Shown one piece after another: positions 1 through 48,674 of a stretch of DNA of 50,458 nucleotides; the stretch's first letter is position 1, and every line of letters begins with the position of its first letter. Source of the DNA: a virus; the IMG/VR virus record IMGVR_UViG_3300042473_000179, positions 1 to 50,458 of that record; one strand, 5' to 3'. The notes below the pieces were generated by a model that was given only the letters and a program-made list of their open reading frames with translations, had not been told where the DNA came from and did not search any database. The translations under genes and the position numbers were made by a program.

Positions 1-1000
1 CCCTATAGTCATCTAGTAAAGAAGTTATGCGTTTAGTTAGTGTATTTTTAAACTCTTGATCATCGATACTATCAATAATTTCTTTATATTCATTGCTGTT
101 AAAACAATAATGTCCTGATACATCAACTGCTTGATGTTTAGTGGCATGCTTTGGATCTGTTACCCATCTTTGCCATTTGTTTGCAGAATACACAACGTCT
201 GAAAATTTGTCCCATAAATGCACAGGAGAAAATTGTTTTAGAATTGCGGTTTGTATAGTACCCAATTGAGGTGCAATATTTAGACTATCTATTCCTGCGG
301 CTCGTCTATTAAGCAAATCATTTTTGTTAAAATAATCAGCATTATGCTCTTTGAATAAAAATCCAGCATCATGAATCTGTTTAGCAACATGGGTATTATC
401 AACTAGATTAAAGTTTCCCTCTTGGCCACATTTGGTTAAACTGCCGGTCTGCGTAACAAAAAATTTTATATTTTTCTTATACTGTTGTAAAAATGCTAAT
501 TGTTCTTCAATACGTCCTATACTACTGGACACGTCTATGCCAGTATTATCCTCACTGCCAAATTCTAACATTATATCGGGATTCAGAGAGATGGCATATT
601 CTATTAATTCTTTACCGTGAGTGAGATGATTGGATTTTATTCTAGACACATCTATGTGAATCAAGTCAAACCCGCAGTTGATATCGTTTTTGACTGTTTC
701 CTTACACATAGCAATGCATTCGTCTATGGATAACACAACATCTTTATCTCCAAAATAAGGACCACAGTGATCTCTACAAATTAATAAATTCGGATTATTA
801 TATTGATGTACCAAGTTGGTTAATTCTTTGCTAGTACATACATAGCCTGAATTATAATCTACTTGATTTCTACTAGCAATAATCATTAGAGGGTAATTAT
901 ACTCCATAGTATATTTTGCTAGTATTTCAGTTATGTCTCGGCTCATGGGGCCAAAACCTAATTTAAATTGATTGATAGAATTTTTCTGAGAATCGGTCAT
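1..1000 (-). CDS. GatZ/KbaZ-like class II aldolase-family protein (3' end cut by window edge)
   Basis: Reading the minus strand from ATG at 1000 gives an open frame to the window edge, starting MTDSQKNSINQFKLGFGPMS. The segments IIASRNQVDYNSGY, LLICRDHCGPYFGD and FDLIHIDVSRIK match in order the family segments of the tagatose-bisphosphate aldolase accessory subunit GatZ/KbaZ (TSNQVN..GGYTG, GGDHLGP, K.HLDAS). That family supports or resembles class II sugar-phosphate aldolases. The start overlaps the preceding AroE-like gene by 38 nt, so the two are translationally coupled. It lies in a run with a nucleotidyltransferase-kinase fusion and a cupin, pointing to synthesis of an activated sugar or polyol. 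The C-terminus is outside the window. The family call is from recalled motifs; substrate unknown. Confidence 0.7.
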   Translation of the reverse strand, partial: MTDSQKNSINQFKLGFGPMSRDITEILAKYTMEYNYPLMIIASRNQVDYNSGYVCTSKELTNLVHQYNNPNLLICRDHCGPYFGDKDVVLSIDECIAMCKETVKNDINCGFDLIHIDVSRIKSNHLTHGKELIEYAISLNPDIMLEFGSEDNTGIDVSSSIGRIEEQLAFLQQYKKNIKFFVTQTGSLTKCGQEGNFNLVDNTHVAKQIHDAGFLFKEHNADYFNKNDLLNRRAAGIDSLNIAPQLGTIQTAILKQFSPVHLWDKFSDVVYSANKWQRWVTDPKHATKHQAVDVSGHYCFNSNEYKEIIDSIDDQEFKNTLTKRITSLLDDYR

Positions 1001-1694
1001 AAATATCCGGTTGAGGAATGATTCCGGTGTAAATTTCGAATTGTTTTAAGAACTGTTGTTTATAAAATTCTCTACCAGAAACATATTGTATATTACTTAT
1101 TCTGCATTGCTCTGCTAGGTAATTTTTTGTTACCATAGACATATCTATTACTAAGCGAGTTCCCAGTGGTAAAAACTCAAATAAGTTATCTTGTGCAGTT
1201 GTTCCGCAAGGTGTGCAGTTTATCAACACATCAGTTTCGGCTACACGACCAAGCCAATTTGCACGTCGAGAAAAAACTTGACAATTATACAACTTTAAGT
1301 ATTCGGCAAATGTTGAGCCTATAGCACCGGCGCCTAATATACTAATTCGGTCATTTGAATAAATCTGTTCGGACACATGTTTTACACCTTCGATATCGCA
1401 ATTATATCCATATAACTTTCCATTAACTATTTTTATAGTATTGCAAGACTGATAAAGATCAACCGACTTGTCTATGCTATCGAGTAACGAAATAACAGAG
1501 TTTTTAAATGGCATTGTAATACTAATTCCATCTATTCCGTCATCTATGGCATCTGATACGCTTTGTTTTAAATTGGACGTTTTGTAGGGAGTGTATGTGG
1601 CATCTATATTGTAGTAATTAAAAAATGAGGTGTAAAAATATTGTCCTGTTTTTCCAGGATTACTAGCAAGACTTATAAATTTTTTATTGTGCAT
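963..1694 (-). CDS. AroE-like shikimate/quinate dehydrogenase-fold protein
   Basis: 243 aa, slightly shorter than typical AroE (about 270). The N-terminal part carries the substrate-binding pattern: ISITMPFK (family: VTxPxK), then SCNTI (family: ANT) and GYNCDIEG (family: GxNTDxxG). A nucleotide-binding stretch follows, SILGAGAIGSTFAEYL near residue 120, with the GAGG-like loop of the Rossmann domain. Known family members reduce 3-dehydroshikimate with NADPH; the catalytic Lys of the TMPFK segment is kept. Several AroE paralogues act in amino-sugar or aminoshikimate pathways. Given the aldolase and sugar-transfer neighbours, a specialised keto-sugar or cyclitol reductase is more likely than housekeeping shikimate synthesis. 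That role is inference. Confidence 0.7.
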   Translation of the reverse strand: MHNKKFISLASNPGKTGQYFYTSFFNYYNIDATYTPYKTSNLKQSVSDAIDDGIDGISITMPFKNSVISLLDSIDKSVDLYQSCNTIKIVNGKLYGYNCDIEGVKHVSEQIYSNDRISILGAGAIGSTFAEYLKLYNCQVFSRRANWLGRVAETDVLINCTPCGTTAQDNLFEFLPLGTRLVIDMSMVTKNYLAEQCRISNIQYVSGREFYKQQFLKQFEIYTGIIPQPDIYDRFSEKFYQSI

Positions 1695-3222
1695 TTTCTA
1701 ATTCTTGGAATAACTTTATCCCCAAGTACCAAAGGAATAAATCAAATGGAGCAGTATGTAGTGGACTCATGTTCCAAAAGATTATTGGTACTAATTGTTG
1801 TACTTTATTATAATCTAGGTTGTTATCTAAAATATATTTCTTTAAACGTTCCTGATATACTGTAATATGATCAACATTTGGAATACTCAACGTCACTGAA
1901 CCATTATCTATCTCTATGTTAAAGTTATGTTTCTTAATGTTGGCATAATTGATAATGAGACCACCGGCCATTTTAGCTAAATCATAATATATGTCACCGT
2001 ACTCAACTAGGCCAGCAAACTCATGACGCCAGTCTATAATCTTAAATTCGCCACTATCACTGATTACAATGTTGTCAAATTGTAGATCACCGTGTATGAA
2101 CCCAGGACGAGTTACTTGAGCAAAGTATTCCCAATCTATTTTGTCAAGATAATAAGTGTAATCTTTAACATTGACTCCATCAACATTTGTAATAGGTTTT
2201 AAATTCGGGTACTTTTCTAAAAACTTATTAATACGTACAAGACTTTTTGTTTTGTAAAATTCAATACTGGCATTGTAAATATCTGCGTCACATTCCTTCC
2301 ACACATTGGTTTCTAACCAATTAAGTAATTCACCAAATGCCACTGGGTTATTAAACTCGTAGAGCGTTTTTCCGGGAAAGAAATTATATGCCATATAATT
2401 TCCGCTGTGTTTACAGTTGGCAGGAAATACATGGGGATTTGCCAGAACTTTGTCGTATTTCTTTTTAGCAACTGTGGGATCTAGCCACCATTTAACCACA
2501 CGATTATTACAGATATATGTAACTTCGTCTTTCTTAGTAAAATCAAACTTTTGACTTTTGCTTAATTCAGTTTGATATATTGTCGGGCTACCAAAGTCCA
2601 ACCATGTGGTTAACGTAGCAGTGTCACTGCCTAATTTAATTATGCCAATAAATTCATTACTATTACTTTGTTTCAAGTCTGCAAAGAATGTAGTATAGTC
2701 AGCTATATACATCAGTCCGGTAAATGCCCGCCACGTTGCTGGCGTTGATTTTTTAAATTTAATGTCATGTATAACAAAACTGTTATTTTGGTCAAACATG
2801 GTATACAGATGAGTATCTTGTTCAGGTACTGTATTAACAAAATAGCAGTCTTTATTTCTAACTTTGTCTATTACTGTCTGATTAAAATAAGTATCGCAAG
2901 GTACGTACCAAAATTCACTGTTAATTAAATCTTTGCATTGTAGCAAAGTAACACCTGTACCAGACTTATCACTAGTCCAATCATCAATTTCTACAAATTC
3001 AATATGCTTATCACTATATGCCGAGTTACAAAAATCTATAATTTGTTCTTTTAAATAACCAACAGGTATAACAAATCTAGTGTTATGGGGAAAGTTGTCT
3101 ATAATATGTGCTAGAACTGGTTTATCCTTGTACGGGAGCAGTGCCTTGTTAAGATGTTTGGTATAATTTCCCATCCTACTACCTAATCCAGCAGTGGGAA
3201 TAATTACAGTGTGTTTATTCAT
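1684..3222 (-). CDS. Nucleotidyltransferase-kinase fusion (NTP_transferase + APH/choline-kinase-like)
   Basis: 512 aa. Residues 1 to about 230 form a sugar-phosphate nucleotidyltransferase: VIIPTAGLGSRMGNYTKHLNKALLPY contains the G-x-G-S/T-R-M...K signature, followed by WYVPCDTYF. Residues about 240 to 512 resemble aminoglycoside-phosphotransferase/choline kinases: FIHGDLQFDNIVI is the Brenner motif (HGDLxxxN) and FKIIDWRHEF the DxD/DW metal motif. Such fusions first phosphorylate and then CTP/NTP-activate a small alcohol (LicA/LicC-type chemistry). It overlaps both neighbours by 8-11 nt. Together with the cupin and the aldolase-like gene it suggests the phage makes an NDP-activated sugar or choline-like donor. 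The substrate is unknown. Confidence 0.75.
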   Translation of the reverse strand: MNKHTVIIPTAGLGSRMGNYTKHLNKALLPYKDKPVLAHIIDNFPHNTRFVIPVGYLKEQIIDFCNSAYSDKHIEFVEIDDWTSDKSGTGVTLLQCKDLINSEFWYVPCDTYFNQTVIDKVRNKDCYFVNTVPEQDTHLYTMFDQNNSFVIHDIKFKKSTPATWRAFTGLMYIADYTTFFADLKQSNSNEFIGIIKLGSDTATLTTWLDFGSPTIYQTELSKSQKFDFTKKDEVTYICNNRVVKWWLDPTVAKKKYDKVLANPHVFPANCKHSGNYMAYNFFPGKTLYEFNNPVAFGELLNWLETNVWKECDADIYNASIEFYKTKSLVRINKFLEKYPNLKPITNVDGVNVKDYTYYLDKIDWEYFAQVTRPGFIHGDLQFDNIVISDSGEFKIIDWRHEFAGLVEYGDIYYDLAKMAGGLIINYANIKKHNFNIEIDNGSVTLSIPNVDHITVYQERLKKYILDNNLDYNKVQQLVPIIFWNMSPLHTAPFDLFLWYLGIKLFQELENAQ

Positions 3223-3649
3223 GTTCGTGACTTATTCTTCCATGAGTCCTACCAGCATCATCTTGTAAACGTATAACATCGTCTAGCTCAGTAGTACTAG
3301 TTTCCATGAATTCTAAGTCAGTAGTGGCAATTACTCTATGTACATATCCTGGCTGTACATTGAACACTACGCCTGCTGTGAGTTCAATCCGTTCAAATGT
3401 GTATTCGTATTGCTCAACTTCTCTGCTGGTCATGCCAGACTCAAGGAATTGTTTAATATCTAGTGGTTCCAGACTGCGATGTAGAACACCTGTACCGCTC
3501 AATACATAATTTGTTTCAATTTTATACTCATGCACTTGCAAGCTGGTTCTGTTACCTGCTTTAAATAAAATACGCTTACTAGCATACGGAGTTGTAGTAC
3601 CATCTGCTATCCAAAGTTCTTGTCCCCAAGGTTTTTTAATTATTTTCAT
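3215..3649 (-). CDS. Cupin, mannose-6-phosphate isomerase type II C-terminal-like
   Basis: 144 aa single cupin. It opens with KPWGQELWIA, the typical KPWG.E start of the cupin found at the C-terminus of bifunctional GDP-mannose pyrophosphorylase/phosphomannose isomerases. It continues with the metal-binding part SLQVHEYKIETNYVLSGTG and a second motif PGYVHRVIAT. Its position directly upstream of the nucleotidyltransferase-kinase fusion, with an 8-nt overlap, supports sugar isomerisation or binding of a sugar phosphate. Stand-alone versions are common in phage and capsule gene clusters. Which sugar is used cannot be told. Confidence 0.7.
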   Translation of the reverse strand: MKIIKKPWGQELWIADGTTTPYASKRILFKAGNRTSLQVHEYKIETNYVLSGTGVLHRSLEPLDIKQFLESGMTSREVEQYEYTFERIELTAGVVFNVQPGYVHRVIATTDLEFMETSTTELDDVIRLQDDAGRTHGRISHEHE

Positions 3650-5052
3650 AGTTTTACCATTTCTCGACCTGAGCGTTTATAAATCCATTTGCCTAAACTA
3701 TTGCTTCCGAATGTAGTTGCTTTTGGATAACGTGTTTCTATAGAGTTTAAAAAGTTGTTAAATTCATTATCTAAATCCTCTAAGCTAAATTTCATGCTTG
3801 TAAAATCTGTTGCAAAGATATTACTATAATAAAAAAATGGTCTTGTTGCACCATTACCTAGTTCTAATAGATTTTTAAATTGTTCTTTATTAAATAAATC
3901 AACTACTACAAATTCAGCGTTAGACGACCTAAATTTATTCCAAAGTTTTTTAAATTTCTCCTCACCTCCGTATGCATCATGTAATATTTTAATATTGGTA
4001 TCCATATCTGCATTGATGAATTTATACATCCTTTTTAATTCAATAGGTTTTTTCATTAAAAACTGTTTTAAATCATTTCCATCCCATGAAGTTTTTAGCA
4101 TCTTTAACCATTCAATACTTTCTTTATTGAAATCGTAAAATATAAATTTAATATCAGGAGACTTTTCTAACATATCGAGATATTTAAAACCAGCTGCTGG
4201 CCCGAAGTATATGTCGCTGCCAATCGTTGGTACACCAAACTGATATGATTCACTATTAAAAATCCAAATTTGTGGGTTAGGATTAAACCATCTGTCTATT
4301 AATTTTTTTTGATTGGGATTAGTTAGCTCAGCTGTGTTGTTAGTCTGTAGTGCATTATAAAACAATTCACTTTCATGCACAGGATACACATAGAGTCGGC
4401 AATCTCTCATTTCCTGAGGAAAGTTATCTATTCTAATTCCTTTAGAGAATGCAGCTTTTAGCCATCCCCAACCAGGGTAACTTCTTGTTTTAACGTCTGA
4501 TCCATCAATACCTTGCACCCAGAATGGGGTGTAATTGTCGTGGAAGTTTTCTTCTGATCTTGTGTAGTTGGGTAATTCTTCTGTTACTTCTTCCCAATCA
4601 CCGAATATTGGACTTCCTAATTTTTTCCACGATGCTACATTCACAATCATCATTTGATTGTGAATCTCTACCCATCCTTTGCGTTTTTCTGATTCCCAGT
4701 CAAGTGTAAATGCCATTAAAAAGAAATCAGGATTTTTAGTTCCGTAGTTATCTAGCACTTCGTAAAATTTGTTAATTCTAATAAAATTTCCTATATTTTG
4801 AATTACAACAATATCATATTCATGGCTTTGCTCCATGCATTGATCTATGTTATTAAAATATCGTACAGTACCTTTTAATGTAGAAGAACTCATCCTAAAA
4901 GTAAAACTGTACGTCATGTCGTACATTCTTTTAAACAATTGAGGATGTTTATTTTTGATATTGTCTTGATCGACAATTGCATACATGATATTTTTATTTC
5001 TTAGATATGTTTTATCAATTGTCAGCTTAGTAAAAACGGTTTCAGTGGTCAT
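3646..5052 (-). CDS. Conserved phage protein of unknown function (468 aa), possible SAM-methyltransferase-like C-terminal half
   Basis: I do not recognise a named family with confidence. The N-terminal half is rich in aromatic residues and reads YDIVVIQNIGNF and DFFLMAFTLDW, a Rossmann-like alternation of beta strand and helix. Around residue 275-330 a segment FGPAAGFKYLDMLEKSPDIK is followed by FIFYDFNKESIEWLKML, resembling the glycine loop and acidic beta-2 end of class I methyltransferases. It overlaps the cupin and the 2OG oxygenase genes by 4 nt on each side. It may be a transferase of the same pathway; this is inference only. Confidence 0.55.
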   Translation of the reverse strand: MTTETVFTKLTIDKTYLRNKNIMYAIVDQDNIKNKHPQLFKRMYDMTYSFTFRMSSSTLKGTVRYFNNIDQCMEQSHEYDIVVIQNIGNFIRINKFYEVLDNYGTKNPDFFLMAFTLDWESEKRKGWVEIHNQMMIVNVASWKKLGSPIFGDWEEVTEELPNYTRSEENFHDNYTPFWVQGIDGSDVKTRSYPGWGWLKAAFSKGIRIDNFPQEMRDCRLYVYPVHESELFYNALQTNNTAELTNPNQKKLIDRWFNPNPQIWIFNSESYQFGVPTIGSDIYFGPAAGFKYLDMLEKSPDIKFIFYDFNKESIEWLKMLKTSWDGNDLKQFLMKKPIELKRMYKFINADMDTNIKILHDAYGGEEKFKKLWNKFRSSNAEFVVVDLFNKEQFKNLLELGNGATRPFFYYSNIFATDFTSMKFSLEDLDNEFNNFLNSIETRYPKATTFGSNSLGKWIYKRSGREMVKL

Positions 5053-5711
5053 AATTTAAAAAAATCTTCCGAGTAATGTCCATGCACTATTATATGATAT
5101 CTAGGCTCATCGCTGTTGTTTAATACAATGTGCTCGTTTGCCACGTCAATGACCATGCCATAGCCTGGTTTGAATGGGACCACGCCTTTGTTTTTAAACA
5201 CAAACTCGCATCCTTCTGGATTATTTATAGCTATGTTTAATGGACTAAAAATTCTACCAGGCCCATCTGTATGTGGCATAATATAACCGCCCGGAGCCAA
5301 TCGCATTATGCGCACACGATCAAATAGTTTATAAGGTAAGGACTGTAAAAATTTAGATAACTTAGGAACACGGTCACATGCATCAGTCCATTGATAGTTT
5401 GCTTCTTTTAAATTAGTAAATCCGTACTTGGTGTAATGTTCAGTTTTGTGTTTGTCAATGCCGTGTAAGGTTAGACTCTGCCACCCGGTGTGGCCATACC
5501 CTTTTTTCTTATCTTGGCCACGATGATTAAAGTAAAGATCATCAACTGATTGACATTCTTCTAATAATGCAGTTGTATCAAAATTAAAATTGATAGGGTA
5601 ATAAACACAATCTATATCATTGAACGATTCAGCGTATGAGTCATGTACAGTGTTGGTAAAAGATTTGTTGTTATTGTAAAATTCTAGTAATTCTTCTGGA
5701 AAGTTTTTCAT
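5049..5711 (-). CDS. Aspartyl/asparaginyl beta-hydroxylase-like 2OG-Fe(II) oxygenase
   Basis: 220 aa. The double-stranded beta-helix core carries the iron triad H147-x-D149 (in GGYIMPHTDGPGR) and H194 (DVANEHIVLNNS). R204 (EPRYHIIVHG) is placed to bind the 2-oxoglutarate carboxylate. The sequence between them (LNIAINNPEGCEFVF) fits the Asp_Arg_Hydrox pattern. Such enzymes hydroxylate free or protein-bound Asp/Asn, Arg or similar using O2 and 2OG. The gene overlaps its neighbours by 4 nt in the long minus-strand chain and sits next to a radical SAM gene, the pairing seen repeatedly in this window. Confidence 0.8.
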   Translation of the reverse strand: MKNFPEELLEFYNNNKSFTNTVHDSYAESFNDIDCVYYPINFNFDTTALLEECQSVDDLYFNHRGQDKKKGYGHTGWQSLTLHGIDKHKTEHYTKYGFTNLKEANYQWTDACDRVPKLSKFLQSLPYKLFDRVRIMRLAPGGYIMPHTDGPGRIFSPLNIAINNPEGCEFVFKNKGVVPFKPGYGMVIDVANEHIVLNNSDEPRYHIIVHGHYSEDFFKL

Positions 5712-6979
5712 TTTTTAATAACCTTGGCACTTTTAATACTGTTAAATTTACTCCACACATTGAGATTCCAAGACTCCTGATCCGTAATAGTGTTAGAATT
5801 AATTATTGGATCTTTGTTTAAAGCATATCCTTGAAGATGAGCAACCGGGATGAATCCCAGCGCCAAGTCACGTAATCTCAATTCAGGATCAATAAACTCT
5901 GAAAAATTATTTGTTGTCCACCACTTGTGTAACGCAATACACGGATAATAAGAAGTGCTTGGACGAAAATTCATATACATTTCAGCCGCAAATCTTTGTT
6001 GTGGACGTATTTGTTTTCTCTTAACAACTTCTACATCTTCGTCATGACATGCACTGGACCAATGTTTTCCTAGAGTGTTATATCCTAAGTAAACCCACCC
6101 CCATTTATGCTCAGGAGTGAATAAAATAAAATCTTCTGGATTTAATTGTTCGTGTAAGTAGTCCGATGGCACTATTTCTTCTAGAGGTTTGTTAGGCATA
6201 AAATCAACCAAACAGGTGCATATAGATTTGTCAGTGTTATCCCAGGTTCGAAAAATCGCTTCAAAATTGTGTATCTGTTCGTTTAATCTCAAAAATGCTT
6301 CATGCAAAAACATATCATGGTCTGGTTCAATTAGTTTTCCTAATTTAATAAACGCCCCGTGGATATCTTCGTTAAAATTTATGCCGGGCCACTTCATAGC
6401 CAATGGATCAGTATCTTCTATTTTTAGATAAGCTTCATCCCACCAATTGCTATCTATTTTTTCTTGAACTCGAGCAAGATAATTCAAGTATTCATTATGC
6501 AAATTATCAATTTCTGTGTTATCTACTTTATATAAAGGTTTCAATTTTATATCGTAAAAGTTATTGATTTTTCCAATACATAAATTAATTTCGGAAAGAT
6601 TGATATTTTTCTTAAAATATGCCTCTAGGTAGTCACCATAAACTTCAAATTGCTCATGTAGATCATTTAGTAATCCTGCATTTATTCTAAGATGATTGAC
6701 ACTGACTATGTCTGGCAATTTAACATCATACTCTGTTGAATTAATAAATTTAATGTTTTCTTGAAATTCTACAAACTGTTTTTGAACTTCTTTAAAACTA
6801 AGTATCTTTCTATAATTAGATTTTATTTTATTTTTAACTTTATTATTTTTATTAATTAATTCAATCCATCGATCAGCAACTGTGGTAGATGTTATTCCGT
6901 AGTATAGTCTTAGTTGTTCCTTGGTATCGCTGTTTTCACATATGATTTCTAAAATCTTCTTTTCATTCCAAATATCCAT
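5708..6979 (-). CDS. Hypothetical phage protein, 423 aa
   Basis: No named family recognised. Residues 1-180 are Lys/Asn-rich and mostly helical (LHNEYLNYLARVQEKI). The C-terminal half is rich in aromatic residues (WGWVYLGYNTLGKHW, CIALHKWWTTN) and ends with a short basic tail. It starts 3 nt after the radical SAM gene stop and overlaps the following oxygenase by 4 nt, so it belongs to the same transcript. No membrane segment or signal peptide is visible. It may be a substrate or partner of the flanking redox enzymes, which is unproven. Confidence 0.5.
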   Translation of the reverse strand: MDIWNEKKILEIICENSDTKEQLRLYYGITSTTVADRWIELINKNNKVKNKIKSNYRKILSFKEVQKQFVEFQENIKFINSTEYDVKLPDIVSVNHLRINAGLLNDLHEQFEVYGDYLEAYFKKNINLSEINLCIGKINNFYDIKLKPLYKVDNTEIDNLHNEYLNYLARVQEKIDSNWWDEAYLKIEDTDPLAMKWPGINFNEDIHGAFIKLGKLIEPDHDMFLHEAFLRLNEQIHNFEAIFRTWDNTDKSICTCLVDFMPNKPLEEIVPSDYLHEQLNPEDFILFTPEHKWGWVYLGYNTLGKHWSSACHDEDVEVVKRKQIRPQQRFAAEMYMNFRPSTSYYPCIALHKWWTTNNFSEFIDPELRLRDLALGFIPVAHLQGYALNKDPIINSNTITDQESWNLNVWSKFNSIKSAKVIKK

Positions 6980-6982
6980 ATA

Positions 6983-8275
6983 CTATACCTCTTGAGTAAT
7001 TTCTGTTTTAAATAATGAAGTTTTAACTTTATTCATTTCGGGAATTGTGACAAATGTATTTTCGTTCCTCACATGATCTAGCTTTCTAGTAATCTCTACA
7101 AAGTCTTTTGCGGCGTCTTTATCAAACGGTGCTTCGAGCTCGTGCAGTATGTATGAAAACCTATTTGTAATATTTGTGTTGTATTTGGCGTTAAATTCAA
7201 GAACAAAGTTTTCTAATTTTTCAATTATCCTTTTCTTAAAATCATCGGGCAATATACGCACATGATAGTGCTTGGGGTCAATAAGCATATTGATAAAAAA
7301 GTTATCGTAGTTGATTCCAAACTCTGGTCTGGCTTTGATTACACCAATATTAACTAGATGTGTAATGATTTCTGGTAATCTAAATACATTCCATGCACCA
7401 ATAGTCATGCCCGGCCTTACAATGATATTGTTCAAAGTTGACATTGCTTTGAGATTTTCTTCTACTTTACTCCACACTGTACCCGCACGAATAAGTTCAG
7501 CACGATCGCCTATTTCATCAATACTGGGCCAAACTTCAATTTTACCTTGCTCCCACTGTTGCCAGTAATCGAGTACTTGTTTTTTACCGTACGATAAAAT
7601 CGATGCATTTGTATTATATGAAATACGAACATCAAATCTTTTATTTTTAACCAGCATGTCTAAAATTTGCCAGTGCTCGGGCATCATTAGAGGCTCACCG
7701 CCTGCAAAGTAAATTTTCTCTACATGTTTAACTTGCTCGTTTAAGAAATCAAAATTTGTAAGATTATCTACTGATTCAATATTCCATACTTTATCCTGTT
7801 CATCAATCCAGCCTAACTTTTTAGCATCAGGCACCCAGGTTGAACTGTAACGTGGCCCACAGCTACGACATTTAAAATTACAAAGATTACTGAAACGGAA
7901 ATCCCAATATTTCAACTCCATTGTGGTACAAGTACCGTCGGGCTCTGTAATTTTTGGAATTTCTCTTAGAACGTTTGCAAAATCTCTAGCATGATGTACT
8001 CGTCCGCTTTCACCAGTAACACGTTCTTGATCAAAACATTTGTTACAAATTTTAGGCTCAACACCTTCAATCATGTCTTTGCGAATAGATTTCATGTTGT
8101 CACTGTTCCAAATCTCTTCGATGGATTGCGTATTTAGATCGCCAGCAAAATAGTCGTGTGTACTTGTTAAACAACAGGGAATTACTTTACCGCTAGGTTC
8201 AAATGCAAGATGCATCCACGGCACAGCACACACTGTTTTTCTAAATTCGCTTATGTCTTTAATTTTAATTGGCAT
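6983..8275 (-). CDS. N-terminal-twitch radical SAM protein
   Basis: 430 aa. The auxiliary-cluster domain comes first: C16-AVPWMHLAFEPSGKVI-C34-C35, then the SLEEIW-like stretch SIEEIWNSDNMKSIR and C77-x2-C80. The radical SAM core follows with C132-x3-C136-x2-C139 (LCNFKCRSCG) and YFAGGEPLMM, the SAM-binding GGEP motif. This order (twitch/SPASM-like cysteines N-terminal) is that of the twitch-domain radical SAM family known from phages and environmental bacteria; function is uncharacterised. It overlaps the glycosyltransferase-like gene by 11 nt. Paralogues at 33.2, 35.9 and 48.8 kb share the layout. Chemistry is radical-based; the substrate is unknown. Confidence 0.88.
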   Translation of the reverse strand: MPIKIKDISEFRKTVCAVPWMHLAFEPSGKVIPCCLTSTHDYFAGDLNTQSIEEIWNSDNMKSIRKDMIEGVEPKICNKCFDQERVTGESGRVHHARDFANVLREIPKITEPDGTCTTMELKYWDFRFSNLCNFKCRSCGPRYSSTWVPDAKKLGWIDEQDKVWNIESVDNLTNFDFLNEQVKHVEKIYFAGGEPLMMPEHWQILDMLVKNKRFDVRISYNTNASILSYGKKQVLDYWQQWEQGKIEVWPSIDEIGDRAELIRAGTVWSKVEENLKAMSTLNNIIVRPGMTIGAWNVFRLPEIITHLVNIGVIKARPEFGINYDNFFINMLIDPKHYHVRILPDDFKKRIIEKLENFVLEFNAKYNTNITNRFSYILHELEAPFDKDAAKDFVEITRKLDHVRNENTFVTIPEMNKVKTSLFKTEITQEV

Positions 8276-9398
8276 TGTCGTCCTGTGCGTATAGTATTTT
8301 ACTTATGTCGCTGTGTAAGGTGTCTTGAAAATTCCAGCACCTCTTGATAAAGATATTGTGGTTGTGTTCAAATATAGGATACATTTCTTTCATTACTTCA
8401 TGAAGATCTGTACGATTTATAAAATCTAAACTGGATTGAATTGCCAGTTCAATTCGACGTTCGTTATCGGGTTCGAGGTCATAACTTTCATCAATGTACC
8501 CGGCAAAAGTCTGATAACCCAATTCTCTAAAATGTTGCAAACTGTATTGTCCATTTATCATAACAAATGGTTGAAAACATTTTATAGGCTTATATGTTTT
8601 TTCTGTAAAAAATGTATGACTAACATGAGTTTCGCTTATGATATGTAAATAACTTTGATAAAATTTATCAACACTTTTGTCAATTATAGACAATGCACTA
8701 TCACCGGTGTGATCTAATTCAATAGGCAATTTCAACGGTATACTGTGTTCAAGTCCAAGTGCATTCCATTGTGTATTATATTTTGGATAGTATTTGATGA
8801 ATTTTAATTTATCATCTTCTTGCCAGTGGAGTCCTTGATAAAAAAAACTAAGTAATCCTTGATCTCTATACGGATATAATCCGGCAACTAATGCAAATCT
8901 ATGATAGCGGCTTCTTCGATTTAAACAAATAAATTTATACGGCCTAATTTCTTCTTTAAAAATATATTCAGTTGCAACTCGTCGTTCTTTGATAAAGTTG
9001 TTATTAAAACTAGCAGGTTCCCAAGAATTACAAAATACAGATTTATATTTTAGAGATCTTGCTACATTTCCAGTAAGAAAAATAATTTTGTCATCTGGTA
9101 AATCATGCGAGTATTGAATATGAGATATTTGATATTCGTAATGCTCCCAATTCTCAGCTTCATGATAATGGGATATTAATATTAAACAATTGCCTTGATT
9201 GATAGAATTTAAAATTATATTTGGTATTGTTACATCAGAGATAGATTTACTATCAAGCGGGAAAAAAATTGGATAGATAAACTTAGTGTTCGGAATTTTA
9301 TCCACTAGTTTAAAAAATGATACATCTTTTAAGATAGTTGACCAATCACCCTTTTGATTAGAGTCGTCTATATATAATAGTATTGGTGTTAAGTCCAT
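8265..9398 (-). CDS. Glycosyltransferase-like phage protein
   Basis: 377 aa. The diagnostic part is near residues 265-310: HTFFTEKTYKPIKCFQPFVM followed by LQHFRELGYQTFAGYIDESYD. This is the 'S/F-TEK-x-y-K-P-I ... P-F-x-x-x-G ... L+xLGF.TF' pattern of GT10-like (fucosyltransferase-type) donor-binding domains often seen in phages. The N-terminal half (FICLNRRSRYHRFALVAGLY) also fits that group. It overlaps both neighbours and probably acts with the sugar-activation genes downstream. Donor and acceptor are unknown; the family link rests on motif recall. Confidence 0.55.
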   Translation of the reverse strand: MDLTPILLYIDDSNQKGDWSTILKDVSFFKLVDKIPNTKFIYPIFFPLDSKSISDVTIPNIILNSINQGNCLILISHYHEAENWEHYEYQISHIQYSHDLPDDKIIFLTGNVARSLKYKSVFCNSWEPASFNNNFIKERRVATEYIFKEEIRPYKFICLNRRSRYHRFALVAGLYPYRDQGLLSFFYQGLHWQEDDKLKFIKYYPKYNTQWNALGLEHSIPLKLPIELDHTGDSALSIIDKSVDKFYQSYLHIISETHVSHTFFTEKTYKPIKCFQPFVMINGQYSLQHFRELGYQTFAGYIDESYDLEPDNERRIELAIQSSLDFINRTDLHEVMKEMYPIFEHNHNIFIKRCWNFQDTLHSDISKILYAQDDNAN

Positions 9399-10255
9399 AG
9401 GCTATCGCGAGCCTTGATTAAACGAATCATCATTGCTTCATCCTCTGCTTCGTAAGCCGCTTCTATTTCCTGTAGCAAGACATGAGACTTATCGCTCATG
9501 GCTTCAAGTTCGGGAGTTTTATCTTTACCCAACCAGCTCATCTTGCCACCATTGGCTACACGGGCCGCTTCGCAATATTCAGTCCACCCACTGGCTTCGT
9601 ATGGATCAGGGCGATTTGGATAGGTCACAGTCCACCATGTGTAAAGCTCTTTGATTTCTCGAGCACGTTCTGCTTGACCTGTGGGCTTGCCGTGGTTGGG
9701 ATCAGTTTCTTCTATGCCCCAGTCTGATCCCATGGTCAAGGTCATGGCCCAATCCAAATGGTCTATGCCTGCCTGTGGACAACGCCAGGTTCTCCATCGA
9801 AACCATCCACTGGCCCAGAAAGGAGGATCATACTTGGCACGGTCTTTTTCATCGCCCCAGGCAATGTGACTCCAAGCTGATTCTATCTCAACAAAATCAA
9901 CCAGCTCATTGAATAGGCAAGGCAAAAAGCGGTTCCCCACATCCCGCCATTGACCCGGCTTAATATCCCGGGGATGAGCGGTAAGACTATGAGTGCGAGT
10001 AACCCAACGGTTGTTAATGTAGTACTTGATATCATAAAGAGTCCTTATGGGCCATGTGACAAAATCCTGGATGTGTCCAAGTGCTTCTTCTGCTAACCAA
10101 TAACGAAAGTTGTGCTTTATTTGGGCCGCAGTAGTCCAGTCGTCCCATTCTTCTGCTGTGCCCGCACTCAATTTTTTAGTGCCGCGAAGCCAGTCTGCAA
10201 AAGGAGTACAACTCCAGTAGTTGATGTGTTGTGCCATTTTATTTTCTATCGCCAA
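9389..10255 (-). CDS. Hypothetical phage protein rich in tryptophan, 288 aa
   Basis: No named family recognised. It contains many Trp residues (FWASGWFRWRTWRCPQAGID; MTLTMGSDWGIEE) and ends in an acidic helix (EIEAAYEAEDEAMM). It starts inside the end of the BI-1-like gene (17-nt overlap) and overlaps the glycosyltransferase-like gene by 10 nt. Base composition here is visibly less AT-rich than in the genes downstream, closer to the core-phage part of the window. A soluble intracellular protein seems likely. Confidence 0.55.
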   Translation of the reverse strand: MAIENKMAQHINYWSCTPFADWLRGTKKLSAGTAEEWDDWTTAAQIKHNFRYWLAEEALGHIQDFVTWPIRTLYDIKYYINNRWVTRTHSLTAHPRDIKPGQWRDVGNRFLPCLFNELVDFVEIESAWSHIAWGDEKDRAKYDPPFWASGWFRWRTWRCPQAGIDHLDWAMTLTMGSDWGIEETDPNHGKPTGQAERAREIKELYTWWTVTYPNRPDPYEASGWTEYCEAARVANGGKMSWLGKDKTPELEAMSDKSHVLLQEIEAAYEAEDEAMMIRLIKARDSLWT

Positions 10256-10934
10256 ATAATTGTAACAAGTTAATAAACAGGTTAATAAAGTCCATGTAAA
10301 GAGTTAAGGCACCGCGAATTTCTACTACATCGCTGGTATCGTAACTAACTTCTTCTCGAATCTTCTGTGTATCGTATGCAGTCAATCCAAGGAAGATAAT
10401 GATCGCTAGGGCAGAGATTACCATTTGCATTATAGTTGAGCCAATAAAGATATTAACAATACTGGCAATAACAATAGCAATCAATCCTACAAACATAAAC
10501 TTACCAAGGCTATCTAGGCTCTGCTTGGTAAAATAGCCATAGCCACTCATTACTGCAAACAAGATGGCCGCGCCCATAAAAGCTGACACAATACTGCCCA
10601 TAGTAAACACAGCAAAGATTGTGGCAAAACTCAATCCCATTAATGCCGCAAATCCATGTAAGCATAACTGTGCTATACTCTTACTTGGGTTATTGGCCAG
10701 TACCATACTAACACCAAAGATTGCCGCTAGCGGAGAAAAGATCACAATCCACTTTAGCATACCGGTAAAAAAGAATTCCAGCAACTCCGGACTAGTGCCC
10801 ACAAAGTAACTGACAAACATTGACACAATAACAGCCAAACTCATATGTCCATACACACGGCCCATTGCTGAATTAATTTCACTAGCACTGCGGTAACTTA
10901 GTACGCCACCGCCTGTATAATTTGCACCAAACAT
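10239..10934 (-). CDS. Bax inhibitor-1/YccA-family membrane protein
   Basis: 231 aa with about seven hydrophobic segments. It has the family hallmarks: an N-terminal YxxMxxG-like part (VYGHMSLAVIVSMFVSYFVG), a long central hydrophobic run, and the C-terminal FLGLTAYDTQKIRE that matches the BI-1/YbhL motif GxxxYDTQ. The start at 10934 is preceded by AAGGAG at good spacing. Bacterial members sit in the inner membrane; YccA binds and restrains FtsH. A phage copy could protect viral proteins from FtsH or affect membrane ion flux; this is inference. Confidence 0.88.
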   Translation of the reverse strand: MFGANYTGGGVLSYRSASEINSAMGRVYGHMSLAVIVSMFVSYFVGTSPELLEFFFTGMLKWIVIFSPLAAIFGVSMVLANNPSKSIAQLCLHGFAALMGLSFATIFAVFTMGSIVSAFMGAAILFAVMSGYGYFTKQSLDSLGKFMFVGLIAIVIASIVNIFIGSTIMQMVISALAIIIFLGLTAYDTQKIREEVSYDTSDVVEIRGALTLYMDFINLFINLLQLFGDRK

Positions 10935-24420: not shown

Positions 24421-24449
24421 ATTATATACTTATTTGTAAATACTGTCAA
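24421..24449 (-). promoter_or_regulatory. Sigma-70-type promoter of the long tRNA and downstream genes
   Basis: Minus strand: -35 TTGACA (24444-24449), 17-nt spacer, -10 TATAAT (24421-24426). The -10 ends 6 nt before the tRNA 5' end, so transcription should begin at about tRNA base 1. Genes 24267 to 22303 probably follow on the same transcript. Confidence 0.82.
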
Positions 24450-25420
24450 TGAGCCATTCTACCATTCCATTTGATAACATTATCCGTTTTGGACAACGCA
24501 CCATGTTGGTCAACCGTTTGTTTTCCACAAGTTGGATTTTGGGAAGATTCTGTAACTATAAATGCAGTTATTGTTGGCCTTATGCCAGAAGTGACACACC
24601 AGATCACCAACCAATTGACGTGTATAAAAATGTGGTTAACGAAATCAAACGCCAAGCCCGCAATAACGGATTCAATCAATTTCATTGGAGTTTCAGTGGC
24701 GGAGAACCAACAGCATATAAAAATCTACTAGAGTTAACTAATCACTTAGACGATGGTGTGTCATATCAAACTGTACATATGACTACTAATTTGAGTCCTA
24801 GTTTGGCTTGGTGGAAACGTTGGGCCAATGCAACCTCCATGTTACAACGTAGAAGCATAACAGCTAGTTTTCACGACGAGTTTGCCAAGGAACAGGAGTT
24901 TGGCGATAAGATTTTACAACTGATGTATGATGGCGTTCACGTTACTATAAATCAAGTTATGGTTCCAGAAAAGTTTTATGAGTTGTATACCAGACTAGAA
25001 AGATTTGCCGCACGTGGTATCAATGTAACTCTTAAGCCGCAAAGCGATCCAACAGCCAGTAGATTAGTAGATGGATACACTGATGAAATGATTCACACGA
25101 TGCAAACTGGATTCCCACAGCACTCCGATGGTGAAGAGACTTATCAGATAGCCTTATACGATGTAAATAATACGGAATACTTGTTTGACCAAGCTGAAAG
25201 ATTCAACGCATTCGGATTTAATAAGTTTAAAGGATGGCAGTGTAACTCGGGATTTCAAAGTGTTATAATAAGAGGCGATCAAATAAAAAGAAGTTACAGT
25301 TGTCATGATGCTCCTTTAGGCAATGTGTTAACAGGATTTAATTTGTTCGAAGATCCTAAACTTTGTTCCACGCCAACATGTGTTAGCAGTGCCGATAGTA
25401 AAATACCTAAATACAAATGA
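24449..25420 (+). CDS. Radical SAM protein (CNYKCSYC type)
   Basis: 323 aa. C35-x3-C39-x2-C42 (FCNYKCSYCWP) binds the 4Fe-4S cluster and SFSGGEPTAY is the SAM motif. The C-terminal KGWQCNSGFQS, RSYSCHDAPLGN and CSTPTCVSS provide five Cys for an auxiliary cluster (SPASM/twitch-like). Closest relatives in the window are 25417-26430 and 31382-32299. Start ATG has no Shine-Dalgarno but TAAATA 6 nt upstream. It overlaps the next radical SAM gene by 4 nt. Substrate unknown. Confidence 0.85.
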   Translation: MSHSTIPFDNIIRFGQRTMLVNRLFSTSWILGRFCNYKCSYCWPYARSDTPDHQPIDVYKNVVNEIKRQARNNGFNQFHWSFSGGEPTAYKNLLELTNHLDDGVSYQTVHMTTNLSPSLAWWKRWANATSMLQRRSITASFHDEFAKEQEFGDKILQLMYDGVHVTINQVMVPEKFYELYTRLERFAARGINVTLKPQSDPTASRLVDGYTDEMIHTMQTGFPQHSDGEETYQIALYDVNNTEYLFDQAERFNAFGFNKFKGWQCNSGFQSVIIRGDQIKRSYSCHDAPLGNVLTGFNLFEDPKLCSTPTCVSSADSKIPKYK

Positions 25421-26430
25421 ATACAATACTAAAAGTAGAACAAAAGTGGCCAGAAGACTATCTAAGAATAGATTTCTCTGTTGGCGATATATGTAACTAT
25501 CAGTGTTGGTATTGCTGGCCAGAATCGCATGCTGCTGAATACAAATGGCCTGACTATGATCTGCTGATTAAAAATTTATCTCACGTATTAGATTATTATA
25601 TTGCAAACACTAATAAAAGACGATTTGAATTTTGTCTGTTAGGCGGAGAGGTTACACACTGGTCTCGTTTCCTTGATTTTATAAAACACTTCAAAGAAAA
25701 TTACAATTGTATTTTTAATTTAATTTCCAACGGTTCGAAAAAATTATCGTGGTGGAGAGAAGCAGCACCTTACTTAGACTATGTGCTGATTAGTCATCAT
25801 CAACAATTCTCTAAAGTAGAACACAATAGAGAGTTGCTTGATTTACTCTATGAACAGGGTGTGATTGGAGTTACTACTGTACTAATGGATCCGGGAAACT
25901 GGGACAAATGTTTAGAAACTATAGAATATTATAAGAAAAGTAAGCGGCGATGGTCTATCAGGTATGGCGAAATTATTCATAAAGACGTCAACTACACAGA
26001 TGAACAAAAGGAAGTTATAGGAAAAGTTAGAGCAAGGGGTGCAAATCCACTGTGGTTCTGGTGGAACAACAAGACGCCTCGAACTATTCCTTACGTTACC
26101 GGACTTGATGGTAAGAAGAAAAAAGTGCCAGATAATTACATCCTTTTAAATCGGTTAAACAATTTCCAAGGATGGGAGTGCAATGTAGGAGTAGATTGGT
26201 TTGCAATCAAAATTGACGGCTCGGTTGTTGGAGTATGTAGCAATTTGTTATATAAAAATAACACCGTTCATAATATATACGACATAGACTTTACTGCTAA
26301 ATTTTCTCCAGAAATTGTTCCAGCAATTTGTATGCAAAATGGATGCTGGTGTGGGTTTGAAACAAACATGCCCAAACGTAAAATAGATTTTACAACAAAG
26401 AATAAGATAATACCGATACATGTTAATTGA
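25417..26430 (+). CDS. Radical SAM protein (CNYQCWYC type)
   Basis: 337 aa. C26-x3-C30-x2-C33 (ICNYQCWYCWPES) is followed by a variant SAM motif LLGGEVTHW (GGEV instead of GGEP). The C-terminal block GWECNVGVDWFAIKIDGSVV, then GVCSN, ICMQNGCWCGF, holds four to five Cys as in the previous gene. ATGA overlap upstream, 11-nt overlap with the methyltransferase-like gene downstream. The two radical SAM paralogues in tandem may act in sequence or as a pair on the same substrate. Confidence 0.85.
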   Translation: MNTILKVEQKWPEDYLRIDFSVGDICNYQCWYCWPESHAAEYKWPDYDLLIKNLSHVLDYYIANTNKRRFEFCLLGGEVTHWSRFLDFIKHFKENYNCIFNLISNGSKKLSWWREAAPYLDYVLISHHQQFSKVEHNRELLDLLYEQGVIGVTTVLMDPGNWDKCLETIEYYKKSKRRWSIRYGEIIHKDVNYTDEQKEVIGKVRARGANPLWFWWNNKTPRTIPYVTGLDGKKKKVPDNYILLNRLNNFQGWECNVGVDWFAIKIDGSVVGVCSNLLYKNNTVHNIYDIDFTAKFSPEIVPAICMQNGCWCGFETNMPKRKIDFTTKNKIIPIHVN

Positions 26431-27033: not shown

Positions 27034-27597
27034 TTAAAATGTGTAAGTATATAGCTCGATGTCTTCTTTAAATATGTTTGCTATTTTATTTTTCTGATCA
27101 GTTGTATAGTATGTTTTATAATCGTTGTGTGTTGAGGTGTTGATATAAGGCAACGGTTTTTCACAATTTAGTAAATTTTGTATCACTTTAAAATCTGTTG
27201 AGAGAGTTTCAGCTTTGAACAACCAGTCAACACCCGGCTCAATCCATTTACACTGGTTAGTAGATAACGAGTTCCAACTCTGTGTATCATAGTCAAGTTT
27301 ACCAACAAACTGATTCCACGTGGGAAAATCATCTATTGACTTAATGTTATTATTTTCCCAATAAAACTTATATTGTTGTAGATAAAAATATGAACTTACC
27401 ATTCTTGCCCACGGGTTACGAACAATTGCAAAGGACCGGCCAACATTCCACGACTCTTTAATTGTTGACAAGTTAGGATGTCCGCCAATTCGTTCATACT
27501 CAAAATTTCTACTTAACCATTCAACTACACTTGACCCTGCACTTTTGGGAATATGTACAAACGTTAAATTGTTATTGGGTAGATTGATTGCTGCCAT
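27034..27597 (-). CDS. Sulfotransferase family protein
   Basis: 187 aa. FVHIPKSAGSSVVEWL is the 5'-phosphosulfate-binding loop of Sulfotransfer_2-type enzymes, and FAIVRNPWARMVSSYFYLQ is the 3'-phosphate-binding motif (RNPxxRxxS). These transfer sulfate from PAPS to hydroxyls of sugars or other acceptors. It is shorter than usual (250 or more aa), so it may be a minimal version. It overlaps the radical SAM gene upstream by 26 nt. Suggests decoration of a glycan or lipid. Confidence 0.82.
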   Translation of the reverse strand: MAAINLPNNNLTFVHIPKSAGSSVVEWLSRNFEYERIGGHPNLSTIKESWNVGRSFAIVRNPWARMVSSYFYLQQYKFYWENNNIKSIDDFPTWNQFVGKLDYDTQSWNSLSTNQCKWIEPGVDWLFKAETLSTDFKVIQNLLNCEKPLPYINTSTHNDYKTYYTTDQKNKIANIFKEDIELYTYTF

Positions 27598-28597
27598 GTT
27601 TGTCGTTAAATTTTATTTCACTATCAGAGCAAACTCCTGCACATGCAGCCAGTCTGCCGTTGGCATAGTCTTTGTTCCAACTGTCTTGAACACCTCGAAA
27701 AAAAGTACCTTGCATAATACTGTCCCAATCGTGTAATTTGAGATTTATTTTGCTGTCTCCATGTTCAGCCCATAGTATTTCCCAGCCGTCTTTAAAGTCA
27801 ACAGTTCTGCTGTACATGTTTCTGGATGATAAGGGACAACAAGGAAATAGCTTGCCAGTGTACTCTATATACACTGTGCTGTTGTGTTTGGCATAACAAC
27901 TGATCTTGCTATGGTTACTTTGGTCATGCCACTGAGACAACGTTATCCTAGGCATTAATTTTATAACTTGAGATGGCGGCTCCACAATTTTAGTTTGTGC
28001 AGTCATTTCAAACAGTGTAAATCTGTGCGATGGCTTGACAAAGAAATTCTTAAAACCCATGCTGAGTGACAGTTTCCTTGCTTGCTCAACTTGATGCTCA
28101 TTGTGCTTGAATGTAATAAATTGCCATTCAGCATGGCCACCTGCATCTATAAACGCTTTGGCATTTTTCATTACTTTGTTCCATGCCACATTCACACGGT
28201 ATACATGATTGGTATCTGACAAGCCGTCAATGGCAAATATCACACGGCCTTTAGTGCTTAACGATTCAGCAAGTTTGATCCAGAATGTTTCATTGCGTAG
28301 GCCGCCATTGGTTGAAACTGTGATGTAACACTGTGGTGCTCGTGCCAGTACAGTATCACACACATCTATAAAATTTGGTGCGGCTGCTGAGTCACCGAGT
28401 ACTCCATTGAACAACACTCGCTCAACTTGTTGCATAACATAGTCTGGTATGCGATCTTTGAAAAATTTCGTAGGTAGATATGTTTCTTCAAACCAAGATT
28501 TATCATCCGGTGTATTTTCTCTCAAACACATAGGGCATGCCGCATTACAGATAGACGTATTTTCTATCTGTAGTTCTTTAATATTTTTGTAAAACAT
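27572..28597 (-). CDS. Radical SAM/SPASM protein (CNAACPMC type)
   Basis: 341 aa. C17-x3-C21-x2-C24 (SICNAACPMCLR), then FNGVLGDSAAAP in place of a GGEP motif, and VIFAIDGLSD. A C-terminal SPASM-like set includes CYAKHNSTVYIEYTGKLFPC followed by CC-like Cys and AACAGVCSDSE. Similar to 32262-33242; both share the phrase FKHNEHQ/FEHNEHQ. It overlaps both neighbours (sulfotransferase and kinase-like). Substrate unknown. Confidence 0.84.
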   Translation of the reverse strand: MFYKNIKELQIENTSICNAACPMCLRENTPDDKSWFEETYLPTKFFKDRIPDYVMQQVERVLFNGVLGDSAAAPNFIDVCDTVLARAPQCYITVSTNGGLRNETFWIKLAESLSTKGRVIFAIDGLSDTNHVYRVNVAWNKVMKNAKAFIDAGGHAEWQFITFKHNEHQVEQARKLSLSMGFKNFFVKPSHRFTLFEMTAQTKIVEPPSQVIKLMPRITLSQWHDQSNHSKISCYAKHNSTVYIEYTGKLFPCCPLSSRNMYSRTVDFKDGWEILWAEHGDSKINLKLHDWDSIMQGTFFRGVQDSWNKDYANGRLAACAGVCSDSEIKFNDKHGSNQSTQ

Positions 28598-30918: not shown

Positions 30919-31385
30919 GTAATGACTACCTGCAAACTAATTTTAGGTACGAGACTACAATTTGCGGCACCGTGTGAGATTGAGATACTATCAAATTCAA
31001 AAACATCACCTTTTTTGTAATCAGTCAACACTTTATCACCGTATGAAAATAAGTGTCCTGGTTGGTAATCCTGGCATGCGATCCACAATCTGCTTTTAGG
31101 TTCAAGACTGGGATATATATCTTGATGATATGGAAATACATTGCCAGGTAATAGCTTGCTGAACCACCAATTTCCAACAAAGGGCAAATCAACTGTGAAG
31201 GGAAAGTTGTCACTACTAAATGATTCCCAGTATAAGCGATTAATATCGCATCCAGCTGCAATCCATTTTTCACATGTTTCTTTTTGATAATTTGCAGGCG
31301 GCAATACAGGACGTTTTGACCCGGTGTTTTGCATCATGAAATCTAATGCACGTTGGTCTATTTGAATATTTTTTAAGAATTTCAT
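30915..31385 (-). CDS. Small 2OG-Fe(II) oxygenase-like protein, 156 aa
   Basis: Compact beta-helix core: WWFSKLLPGNVFPYHQDIYP gives H87-x-D89, and SISISHGAANC gives H138. In place of the usual Arg 2OG anchor is Lys148 (PKISLQVVI). Between them, SRLWIACQDYQPGHLF is the typical major-strand segment. It overlaps the SGNH gene (4 nt) and the radical SAM gene (4 nt), showing physical coupling of the three enzyme types. Confidence 0.65.
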   Translation of the reverse strand: MKFLKNIQIDQRALDFMMQNTGSKRPVLPPANYQKETCEKWIAAGCDINRLYWESFSSDNFPFTVDLPFVGNWWFSKLLPGNVFPYHQDIYPSLEPKSRLWIACQDYQPGHLFSYGDKVLTDYKKGDVFEFDSISISHGAANCSLVPKISLQVVIT

Positions 31386-47683: not shown

Positions 47684-47691
47684 ATGTTATT

Positions 47692-48294: not shown

Positions 48295-48303
48295 ACTATA
48301 AAA

Positions 48304-48378: not shown

Positions 48379-48387
48379 ATATTCTCA

Positions 48388-48618: not shown

Positions 48619-48638
48619 ATATGCCTCATTAAAATGTT

Positions 48639-48667: not shown

Positions 48668-48674
48668 TGCTTTT

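Follow-up and report, generated by a model that had tools for sequence, protein, structure and literature searches.

A viral nucleotidyltransferase-kinase cassette with GatZ-like and AroE-like genes and its relatives in cellular polysaccharide clusters

Genes at the start of the record

Because the window analysed here is an entire IMG/VR record of 50,458 bases, the cassette described below is cut at base 1. Four frames lie head to tail on the minus strand with short overlaps: a GatZ/KbaZ-related TIM-barrel protein of 333 aa (2..1000), which reaches the record end with no stop seen, an AroE/SdhL-like NAD(P) dehydrogenase of 243 aa (963..1694), a 512-aa protein in which an N-terminal nucleotidyltransferase is fused to a C-terminal APH-type kinase (termed NTK; 1684..3222), and a 144-aa cupin that resembles the C-terminal domain of phosphomannose isomerase (3215..3649). 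Further along the same strand, an overlapping 468-aa protein without a family (3646..5052) lies outside the conserved cassette, followed by an aspartyl/asparaginyl (Asp_Arg) hydroxylase-like protein (5049..5711; PF05118 at 51.7 bits, over 22.6, E 1.1e-13) and a 423-aa protein (5708..6979) without a significant family in Pfam, PHROGs or NCBIfam. A sequence-only reading of this DNA had described the genes as overlapping one another, and from gatZ up to 5708 adjacent genes do overlap, by 38, 11, 8, 4, 4 and 4 bases. Its identification of AroE-like, nucleotidyltransferase-kinase and cupin genes was confirmed by Pfam profiles over cut-off, but the label GT-like for the 3646-5052 protein was not: the protein matches nothing in Pfam, its hits in PHROGs (E 0.032) and in NCBIfam (E 0.026) are weak and to families other than glycosyltransferases, and AlphaFold modelled it poorly (mean pLDDT 44.6). 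This protein has five distant viral relatives, in one of which (L117) the frame runs on into sequence resembling the window's hydroxylase.

For the GatZ-like protein, PF08013 scored 23.3 bits, just under the cut-off of 26.7 that the relative L008 passes with 27.0 bits, and PHROGs gave a match at E 0.049 only. The fold search with its AF2 model (pLDDT 90.3) returned 2fiq as the best match (Z 30.3, 323 residues), with 3txv at 28.1 and the tagatose 4-epimerase 9kcs at 27.4. According to passages of PMC11907403, E. coli GatZ and KbaZ epimerise C4 between fructose-6-P and tagatose-6-P; the catalytic and metal-site residues proposed there, D87, H88, E171 and H257, have their equivalents by alignment in D77, H78, E150 and H219, which are kept in the window protein. 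D77, H78 and H219 are identical in 57/57 aligned GatZ-like proteins, and position 150 is Glu or Asp in 56 of them. Because the family-specific E44 and K279 of GatZ, named in the same passages (PMC11907403), are replaced by I41 and N241, the pocket differs and fructose-6-P may not be the substrate. On this replacement, we file the protein as a putative sister subfamily working like GatZ, not as GatZ itself.

The sequence-only reading had instead regarded this gene as aldolase-like and had placed C-C bond formation at the head of a pathway. A true class II aldolase would join a DHAP-like donor to an aldehyde, and the new carbon skeleton would be reduced by the AroE-like enzyme and activated by NTK. 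The protein shares the superfamily and metal-site architecture of class II aldolases and weakly matches cbbA (NCBIfam E 0.0068), and aldolases reach Z 21.7 in the fold search; however, KbaZ and the 4-epimerases (Z 24-30) outrank every one of them, and the third metal ligand is Glu150 or Asp, not the His that completes the three-His site of class II fructose-bisphosphate aldolases. Moreover, the enzyme pair that replaces the GatZ-like protein in some cellular loci, Rpe with a hexuloisomerase (see below), forms no C-C bond. We therefore consider a bond-forming aldolase improbable; fold and family suggest that the GatZ-like protein is probably a ketose-phosphate C4-epimerase.

The AroE-like protein matches PF08501 (the substrate-binding domain; 45.8 bits, over 27), and its closest solved chain is HI0607 (1npy, E 8e-31). 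K64, N85, D100 and Q218, which we take to be the catalytic Lys and Asp of shikimate dehydrogenase with the accompanying Asn and Gln, are identical in 9/9 viral and 21/21 bacterial or archaeal sequences. Profile and active site point to membership in the shikimate dehydrogenase superfamily, and scores below the NCBIfam equivalog cut-offs (TIGR00507, 105.4 vs 200.2; NF009202, 92 vs 306) argue against a true AroE. The AroE-like protein found nothing in PHROGs, and the AroE matches in phage records were weak, one of them, in a Salmonella record, being a shikimate dehydrogenase of the usual bacterial kind. An IMG/VR pattern scan with the AroE-like protein alone returned no relative and was too strict, since 29 relatives carry the gene.

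In NTK, both domain profiles exceed their cut-offs within one chain (PF12804, 27.5/27; PF01636 APH, 25.1/23.2), and G12, G14, R16, K26 and D110 as well as HGD377-379, N384 and D397 are invariant in 9/9 sequences. The closest solved chain to the nucleotidyltransferase is LicC (1jyk); the structure matches also list CTP-inositol-1-phosphate cytidylyltransferase, and HddC-type domains are among the weak matches. Among 50,697 phage records, NTK matched only Marine virus AG-345-E15, at 27% identity. The cupin passes PF07883 (27.7 bits, over 27.2) and falls under the cut-off of PF01050, the type II phosphomannose isomerase domain (22.2, under 23.6), which a cellular relative (L036) exceeds with 28.1; in L033 and L086, relatives of the cupin are naturally fused to NTK.

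The cassette in viral relatives

NTK, AroE-like and GatZ-like genes occur together and in the same order in 29/29 viral relatives. The cupin gene is found in 26 of these loci, the other three records stopping at or inside NTK, and a carbamoyltransferase follows gatZ in 28/29. A KdsC-like HAD phosphatase belongs to the cassette in 3/29 relatives and is absent beside it in 26/29. The median dN/dS of five genes is 0.05-0.12, indicating purifying selection. The viral cassette is thus a true unit.

These observations bear on the idea that these are auxiliary genes without linkage to one another, or 'stuffer' DNA for packaging, with AroE boosting host aromatic synthesis. Passages of PMC3037559 leave function versus stuffer open for cyanophage LPS genes, but the order conserved in 29/29 viruses, the low dN/dS and the retained catalytic residues, together with the finding of no other shikimate gene among the scanned cassette proteins, make this explanation extremely unlikely here.

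The viral loci also contain repeated families that by eye resemble glycosyltransferases, and a DUF6071/SGNH-like family. Gp23, the major capsid protein of T4-type phages, was found in 4/13 records; the window, which may be a fragment, is not among them. No record of the 13 matched phrog_2, presumably the terminase.

Cellular loci and the exchange of supply genes

The NTK-GatZ-AroE module is not a phage invention but is spread across polysaccharide clusters of bacteria and archaea. In bacteria and archaea of many unrelated lineages, NTK lies in surface-polysaccharide clusters, where its neighbours include GT1, GT2, a flippase, UDP-Glc dehydrogenase and DegT. One cultured carrier of the cassette is the environmental bacterium Solidesulfovibrio aerotolerans (L111). 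Linkage held in viral and cellular loci alike, so the neighbourhood check proposed with the sequence-only reading, namely whether the genes occur independently in unrelated contexts, did not refute it.

The cellular setting also weighs on the possibility that the activated sugar modifies viral DNA as part of a hypermodified base, with the carbamoyltransferase acting on the base or the base's sugar. T-even phages, which glucosylate their DNA according to passages of PMC9614988, provide a precedent, and T4-type Gp23 occurs in some of the viral records. Since the cellular module sits among flippases and GT1/GT2 genes and the viral loci hold the glycosyltransferase-like and DUF6071/SGNH-like families, we regard DNA as a very unlikely destination and favour a surface glycan.

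Among 80 cellular NTK loci, GatZ-like genes occur in 48, AroE-like in 21, Rpe in 10 and transketolase in 3, and in 54 a KdsC-like HAD phosphatase is encoded no more than 6 kb from NTK; none of the counted supply or redox genes was found in 15, several of whose contigs are short. GatZ-like, Rpe and transketolase genes show no overlap. For GatZ-like and Rpe, 0 co-occurrences were observed against 6 expected (P 4e-5, a value that overstates independence because the sequences are related); for GatZ-like and transketolase, the overlap is also 0 (P 0.06, with only three transketolase loci among the 80 related loci). AroE-like and short-chain dehydrogenase genes co-occur 0 times against 1.6 expected (P 0.15), for which we claim no exclusion. 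On the NTK tree, the Rpe label needs 6 changes.

The ribulose-monophosphate pathway uses 3-hexulose-6-phosphate synthase (HPS). Because HPS (TIGR03128) is over cut-off in 0/10 Rpe genomes, we do not assign the Rpe and hexuloisomerase pair to that pathway, although a 6-phospho-3-hexuloisomerase lies beside an Rpe in all ten. On chemical grounds, the pair could convert fructose-6-P to 3-hexulose-6-P, its C4 epimer and then tagatose-6-P, the same net reaction as that of the GatZ-like protein. Because the cupin accompanies the GatZ-like gene in 38/48 loci but Rpe in only 1/10, the two supply routes may end at different compounds.

Across 299 Pseudomonadota genomes, seven carry a GatZ-like gene and seven an NTK gene, with complete agreement between the two sets (six genomes once the seed is set aside). 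In two of them (G033 and G064), the two genes lie on separate contigs, and the GatZ-like frame of G033 has 742 aa. Locus L003 has a GatZ-like gene with neither NTK nor AroE in 18 kb.

The same counts bear on a different product. CDP-ribitol and CDP-glycerol are made in teichoic acid pathways, and on this model the AroE-like enzyme would form a hexitol by reducing a ketose, free or phosphorylated, NTK would make a CDP-hexitol, and hexitol phosphate would pass to a polymer. The closest solved nucleotidyltransferase, the CTP:phosphocholine cytidylyltransferase LicC, and the listed inositol-phosphate enzyme are consistent with an NDP-alditol, as is the 5-ketofructose reductase (7cok) that the structure match list and passages of PMC7954740 place in the AroE superfamily. 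However, direct activation of a hexitol phosphate would leave the HAD phosphatase and the kinase without a purpose, 59/80 cellular NTK loci lack AroE, and no CDP-alcohol phosphotransferase was found among the sampled neighbours, so that we consider this product rather unlikely.

A proposed activation route and its known counterparts

From the identity and linkage of the genes, their conserved catalytic residues and the purifying selection on them, we propose, with somewhat more confidence than doubt, that the four genes at 2-3649 are a virus copy of a widespread nucleotide-sugar module acting in the steps outlined here. Most likely, the set remodels a common sugar phosphate into an activated form from which a surface sugar chain is built. 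The sequence-only reading had envisaged an ordered pathway on one compound; a linked activation module of kinase, nucleotidyltransferase and AroE-type oxidoreductase stands by conserved linkage, whereas the C-C bond formation is lost to the fold and family evidence.

The substrates, step order, product and acceptor that we infer are as follows. The GatZ-like enzyme would epimerise C4 of a ketose phosphate by metal-assisted retro-aldol/aldol chemistry, most simply fructose-6-P to tagatose-6-P. By the logic of phosphomannose isomerase, the cupin may convert the ketose phosphate to the aldose phosphate and back. The KdsC-like HAD phosphatase, which the host or another locus would supply where it is absent from the cassette, would strip the terminal phosphate, after which the APH domain of NTK would place a phosphate elsewhere on the sugar, most probably at the anomeric carbon, and the nucleotidyltransferase domain would add NMP. 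The AroE-like enzyme would reduce or oxidise a carbonyl or hydroxyl en route, and downstream genes of the relatives (carbamoyltransferase and GT-like proteins) would decorate the sugar and transfer it to a glycan of the virion or the infected cell.

More tentatively, these loci may represent a new route to NDP-activated 4-epi hexoses (NDP-tagatose or, in aldose form, NDP-talose) in bacteria, archaea and viruses. Two unrelated devices, the GatZ-like retro-aldol epimerase or a 6-phospho-3-hexuloisomerase with a dedicated Rpe acting on 3-hexulose-6-phosphate, might supply the C4-epimerised ketose phosphate to one nucleotidyltransferase-kinase fusion family, and the NTK-GatZ core might have entered viruses on two or more occasions (the window group and Marine virus AG-345-E15). 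In the searched open-access literature, we found no description of the NTK-GatZ-AroE set and no paper on CDP-fructose. If true, the proposal would add an activated sugar to the microbial glycan alphabet, explain NTK, a large uncharacterised family across bacteria and archaea, and predict a role for hexuloisomerase-Rpe pairs beyond formaldehyde metabolism. The cassette would also offer a direct test of whether glycan clusters of T4-like phages work or fill, a question that passages of PMC3037559 leave open for cyanophages.

The large T4-like cyanophages P-SSM2 and S-SSM7 carry big LPS/polysaccharide islands in which, as in the viral loci here, glycan genes occur with carbamoyltransferases; the passages of PMC3037559 on these islands do not mention the NTK-AroE-GatZ set. 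E. coli GatZ/KbaZ and the tagatose and tagaturonate 4-epimerases (UxaE, TsT4Ease) share with the GatZ-like protein the TIM-barrel fold, the catalytic Asp-His pair, the acidic ligand and the second His, but identity in the structural matches is 10-18%, Ile and Asn stand in place of E44 and K279 of GatZ, and the GatZ-like gene is linked to sugar activation, unlike GatZ/KbaZ, which serve catabolism. HI0607/SdhL and 5-ketofructose reductase share the fold family and the Lys/Asp/Asn/Gln active-site set of the AroE-like protein, which differs from them in its context, glycan synthesis, and in having Ala for the second N-terminal Ser, as do 14/21 cellular relatives.

Activation of D-glycero-D-manno-heptose by GmhA, HddA/GmhB and HddC uses an isomerase, a kinase, a HAD phosphatase and a nucleotidyltransferase, the same step logic as that of the NTK module, and HddC-type domains recur among the weak matches. 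The NTK module differs in that its kinase, of the APH type, forms one chain with the nucleotidyltransferase, and in that supply comes in most loci from a GatZ-like protein or from hexuloisomerase with Rpe. In choline activation, the APH-like kinase LicA is the partner of LicC; the NTK module shares such a kinase and has LicC as its nearest solved nucleotidyltransferase, but NTK is one fused chain, and the genes linked to it encode sugar-phosphate epimerases and a HAD phosphatase.

Genes at the start of the window

Because the window is an entire IMG/VR record of 50,458 bases, its end inside the cassette is that of the record itself. The sequence-only reading had described overlapping genes in the first 7 kb, and this was confirmed, with genes on the minus strand overlapping by 4 to 38 bases. 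They comprise a GatZ-like gene (2-1000, slightly below the Pfam family cut-off) and, with Pfam support, an AroE-type dehydrogenase (963-1694), a nucleotidyltransferase-APH kinase fusion (NTK, 1684-3222), a cupin (3215-3649) and an Asp/Arg hydroxylase (5049-5711). The same reading labelled 3646-5052 GT-like, a label that was not confirmed, since three libraries gave no glycosyltransferase support. A 669-aa frame in another compared record (L117:5524-7530) combines a relative of the 468-aa window protein with a part that resembles, by eye, the window hydroxylase, suggesting that 3646-5052 and 5049-5711 may act jointly. The G+C content of 1-6979 is 33%, compared to 38% over the whole record.

Elsewhere, the record carries at least seven radical SAM genes (6983-8275, 24449-25420, 25417-26430, 31382-32299, 33235-34551, 35868-37280 and 48750-49868), the first of which matches the twitch-domain radical SAM family NF033640 (371 bits); 27572-28597 is a weaker eighth candidate (28.3 vs 29.5 bits). 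The gene at 40780-41724 encodes a major tropism determinant N-terminal domain (PF18454, 41.2 bits) and is a possible variable receptor-binding protein. A hydrophobic 231-aa protein (10239-10934) looks Bax-inhibitor/TMBIM family-like by eye and had no PHROGs match. Seven tRNA genes lie at the far end (47606-50163).

The cassette in viruses and cells

The NTK, AroE-like and GatZ-like genes are one unit in viruses: an NTK scan of IMG/VR yielded 29 relatives, and the order NTK - AroE-like - GatZ-like is retained in 29/29. The cupin precedes NTK in 26 (the remaining three records stop at or inside NTK), and a carbamoyltransferase follows the GatZ-like gene in 28. A SnoaL-like gene, absent from the window, lies between NTK and AroE in 25 relatives; in three, AroE and GatZ are separated by a KdsC-like HAD phosphatase, and a methyltransferase akin to the cellular C-methyltransferase family occurs in one. 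The T4-type capsid protein Gp23 was found in 4 of 13 records searched. A distant pair of NTK and GatZ-like genes (27-28% identity) is present in Marine virus AG-345-E15. The NTK of this virus branches apart from those of the other viruses, so the core entered viruses on at least two occasions.

Median dN/dS among viral gene pairs with dS of 0.05 to 1.5 (others were dropped; pairs share sequences and are non-independent) was 0.067 for NTK, 0.118 for AroE, 0.093 for GatZ, 0.066 for the cupin and 0.050 for the carbamoyltransferase, which argues for function over filler; the window enters only one retained pair (cupin).

Compared with full-length viral relatives (L004-L032; 966-3649), the window is 63-87% identical in NTK and 64-91% in the cupin but only 41-52% in AroE-like and 42-64% in GatZ-like, apparently a sign of faster change or module exchange within the cassette. 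Separately, an unannotated wastewater record named Listeria phage LM 4-11-1 (L003), which may be an environmental contig, holds a GatZ-like gene (8929-10197) but neither NTK nor AroE within 18 kb.

The set is a unit in cells too. A scan of genome contigs retained 80 of 107 loci, which were picked by kinase motifs and may favour some NTK types; they span Patescibacteria-like groups, archaea, Planctomycetota, Pelagibacteraceae, Prochlorococcus, Bacillota and others. At most 6 kb from NTK were a HAD phosphatase (54/80), cupin (51), GatZ-like gene (48), C-methyltransferase (34), AroE-like gene (21), Rpe (10) and transketolase (3), counts that are lower bounds because many contigs are short; for L034 and L107, where the NTK frame was not called, the entire locus was counted. 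Neighbours also include GT1, GT2, flippase, UDP-glucose dehydrogenase, sugar epimerase and DegT families. In the reverse test, starting from GatZ-like, both GatZ-like and NTK occurred in 7 of 299 Pseudomonadota genomes, the same seven including one seed, together on a single contig in four non-seed genomes and on separate contigs in two (G064 and G033). In the phylum of locus L043, GatZ-like occurred in 2 and NTK in 6 of 286 genomes (seed included in both), and both GatZ-like genomes hold NTK, with the genes together.

Enzyme identities and proposed epimerase supply

The AlphaFold model of the GatZ-like protein (pLDDT 90.3) is nearest to KbaZ (2fiq, Z 30.3) and 3txv (28.1), followed by tagatose/tagaturonate 4-epimerases (Z 24-27) and, below them, class II aldolases (at most 21.7). 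According to PMC11907403, E. coli lacking gatZ no longer formed tagatose, and supplying GatZ or KbaZ together with a phosphatase brought its formation back, which the authors read as C4 epimerisation of fructose-6-P. Because the catalytic set proposed there is retained but two pocket residues are changed, we regard the GatZ-like proteins as a sister subfamily. The AroE-like protein is nearest to HI0607 (active-site set retained in 30/30), the nucleotide-binding and kinase residues of NTK are invariant (9/9), and its nearest solved nucleotidyltransferase is LicC. The cupin is PMI-like and is joined to NTK in two loci (L033 and L086).

At ten NTK loci Rpe stands in place of GatZ-like, and the two never occur together (0 vs 6 expected, P 4e-5, a value that overstates the independence of related loci). 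The Rpe label requires six changes on the NTK tree and is thus not a single clade's habit. A 6-phospho-3-hexuloisomerase adjoins an Rpe in 10/10 of these genomes (6/10 over the hexuloisomerase cut-off; the L074 and L076 pairs were detected solely by genome search), seven have a second full-length Rpe elsewhere, and hexulose-6-phosphate synthase was over cut-off in 0/10. The cupin accompanies GatZ-like in 38/48 loci vs Rpe in 1/10, which speaks against a fully shared intermediate.

The hexuloisomerase would convert fructose-6-P to a 3-hexulose-6-P in which C4 has the position, relative to the ketone and phosphate, that C3 has in ribulose-5-P. Rpe could then epimerise this compound, and the hexuloisomerase could give tagatose-6-P. 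In the boldest part of our reading, the net reaction of hexuloisomerase and Rpe would be that reported for GatZ.
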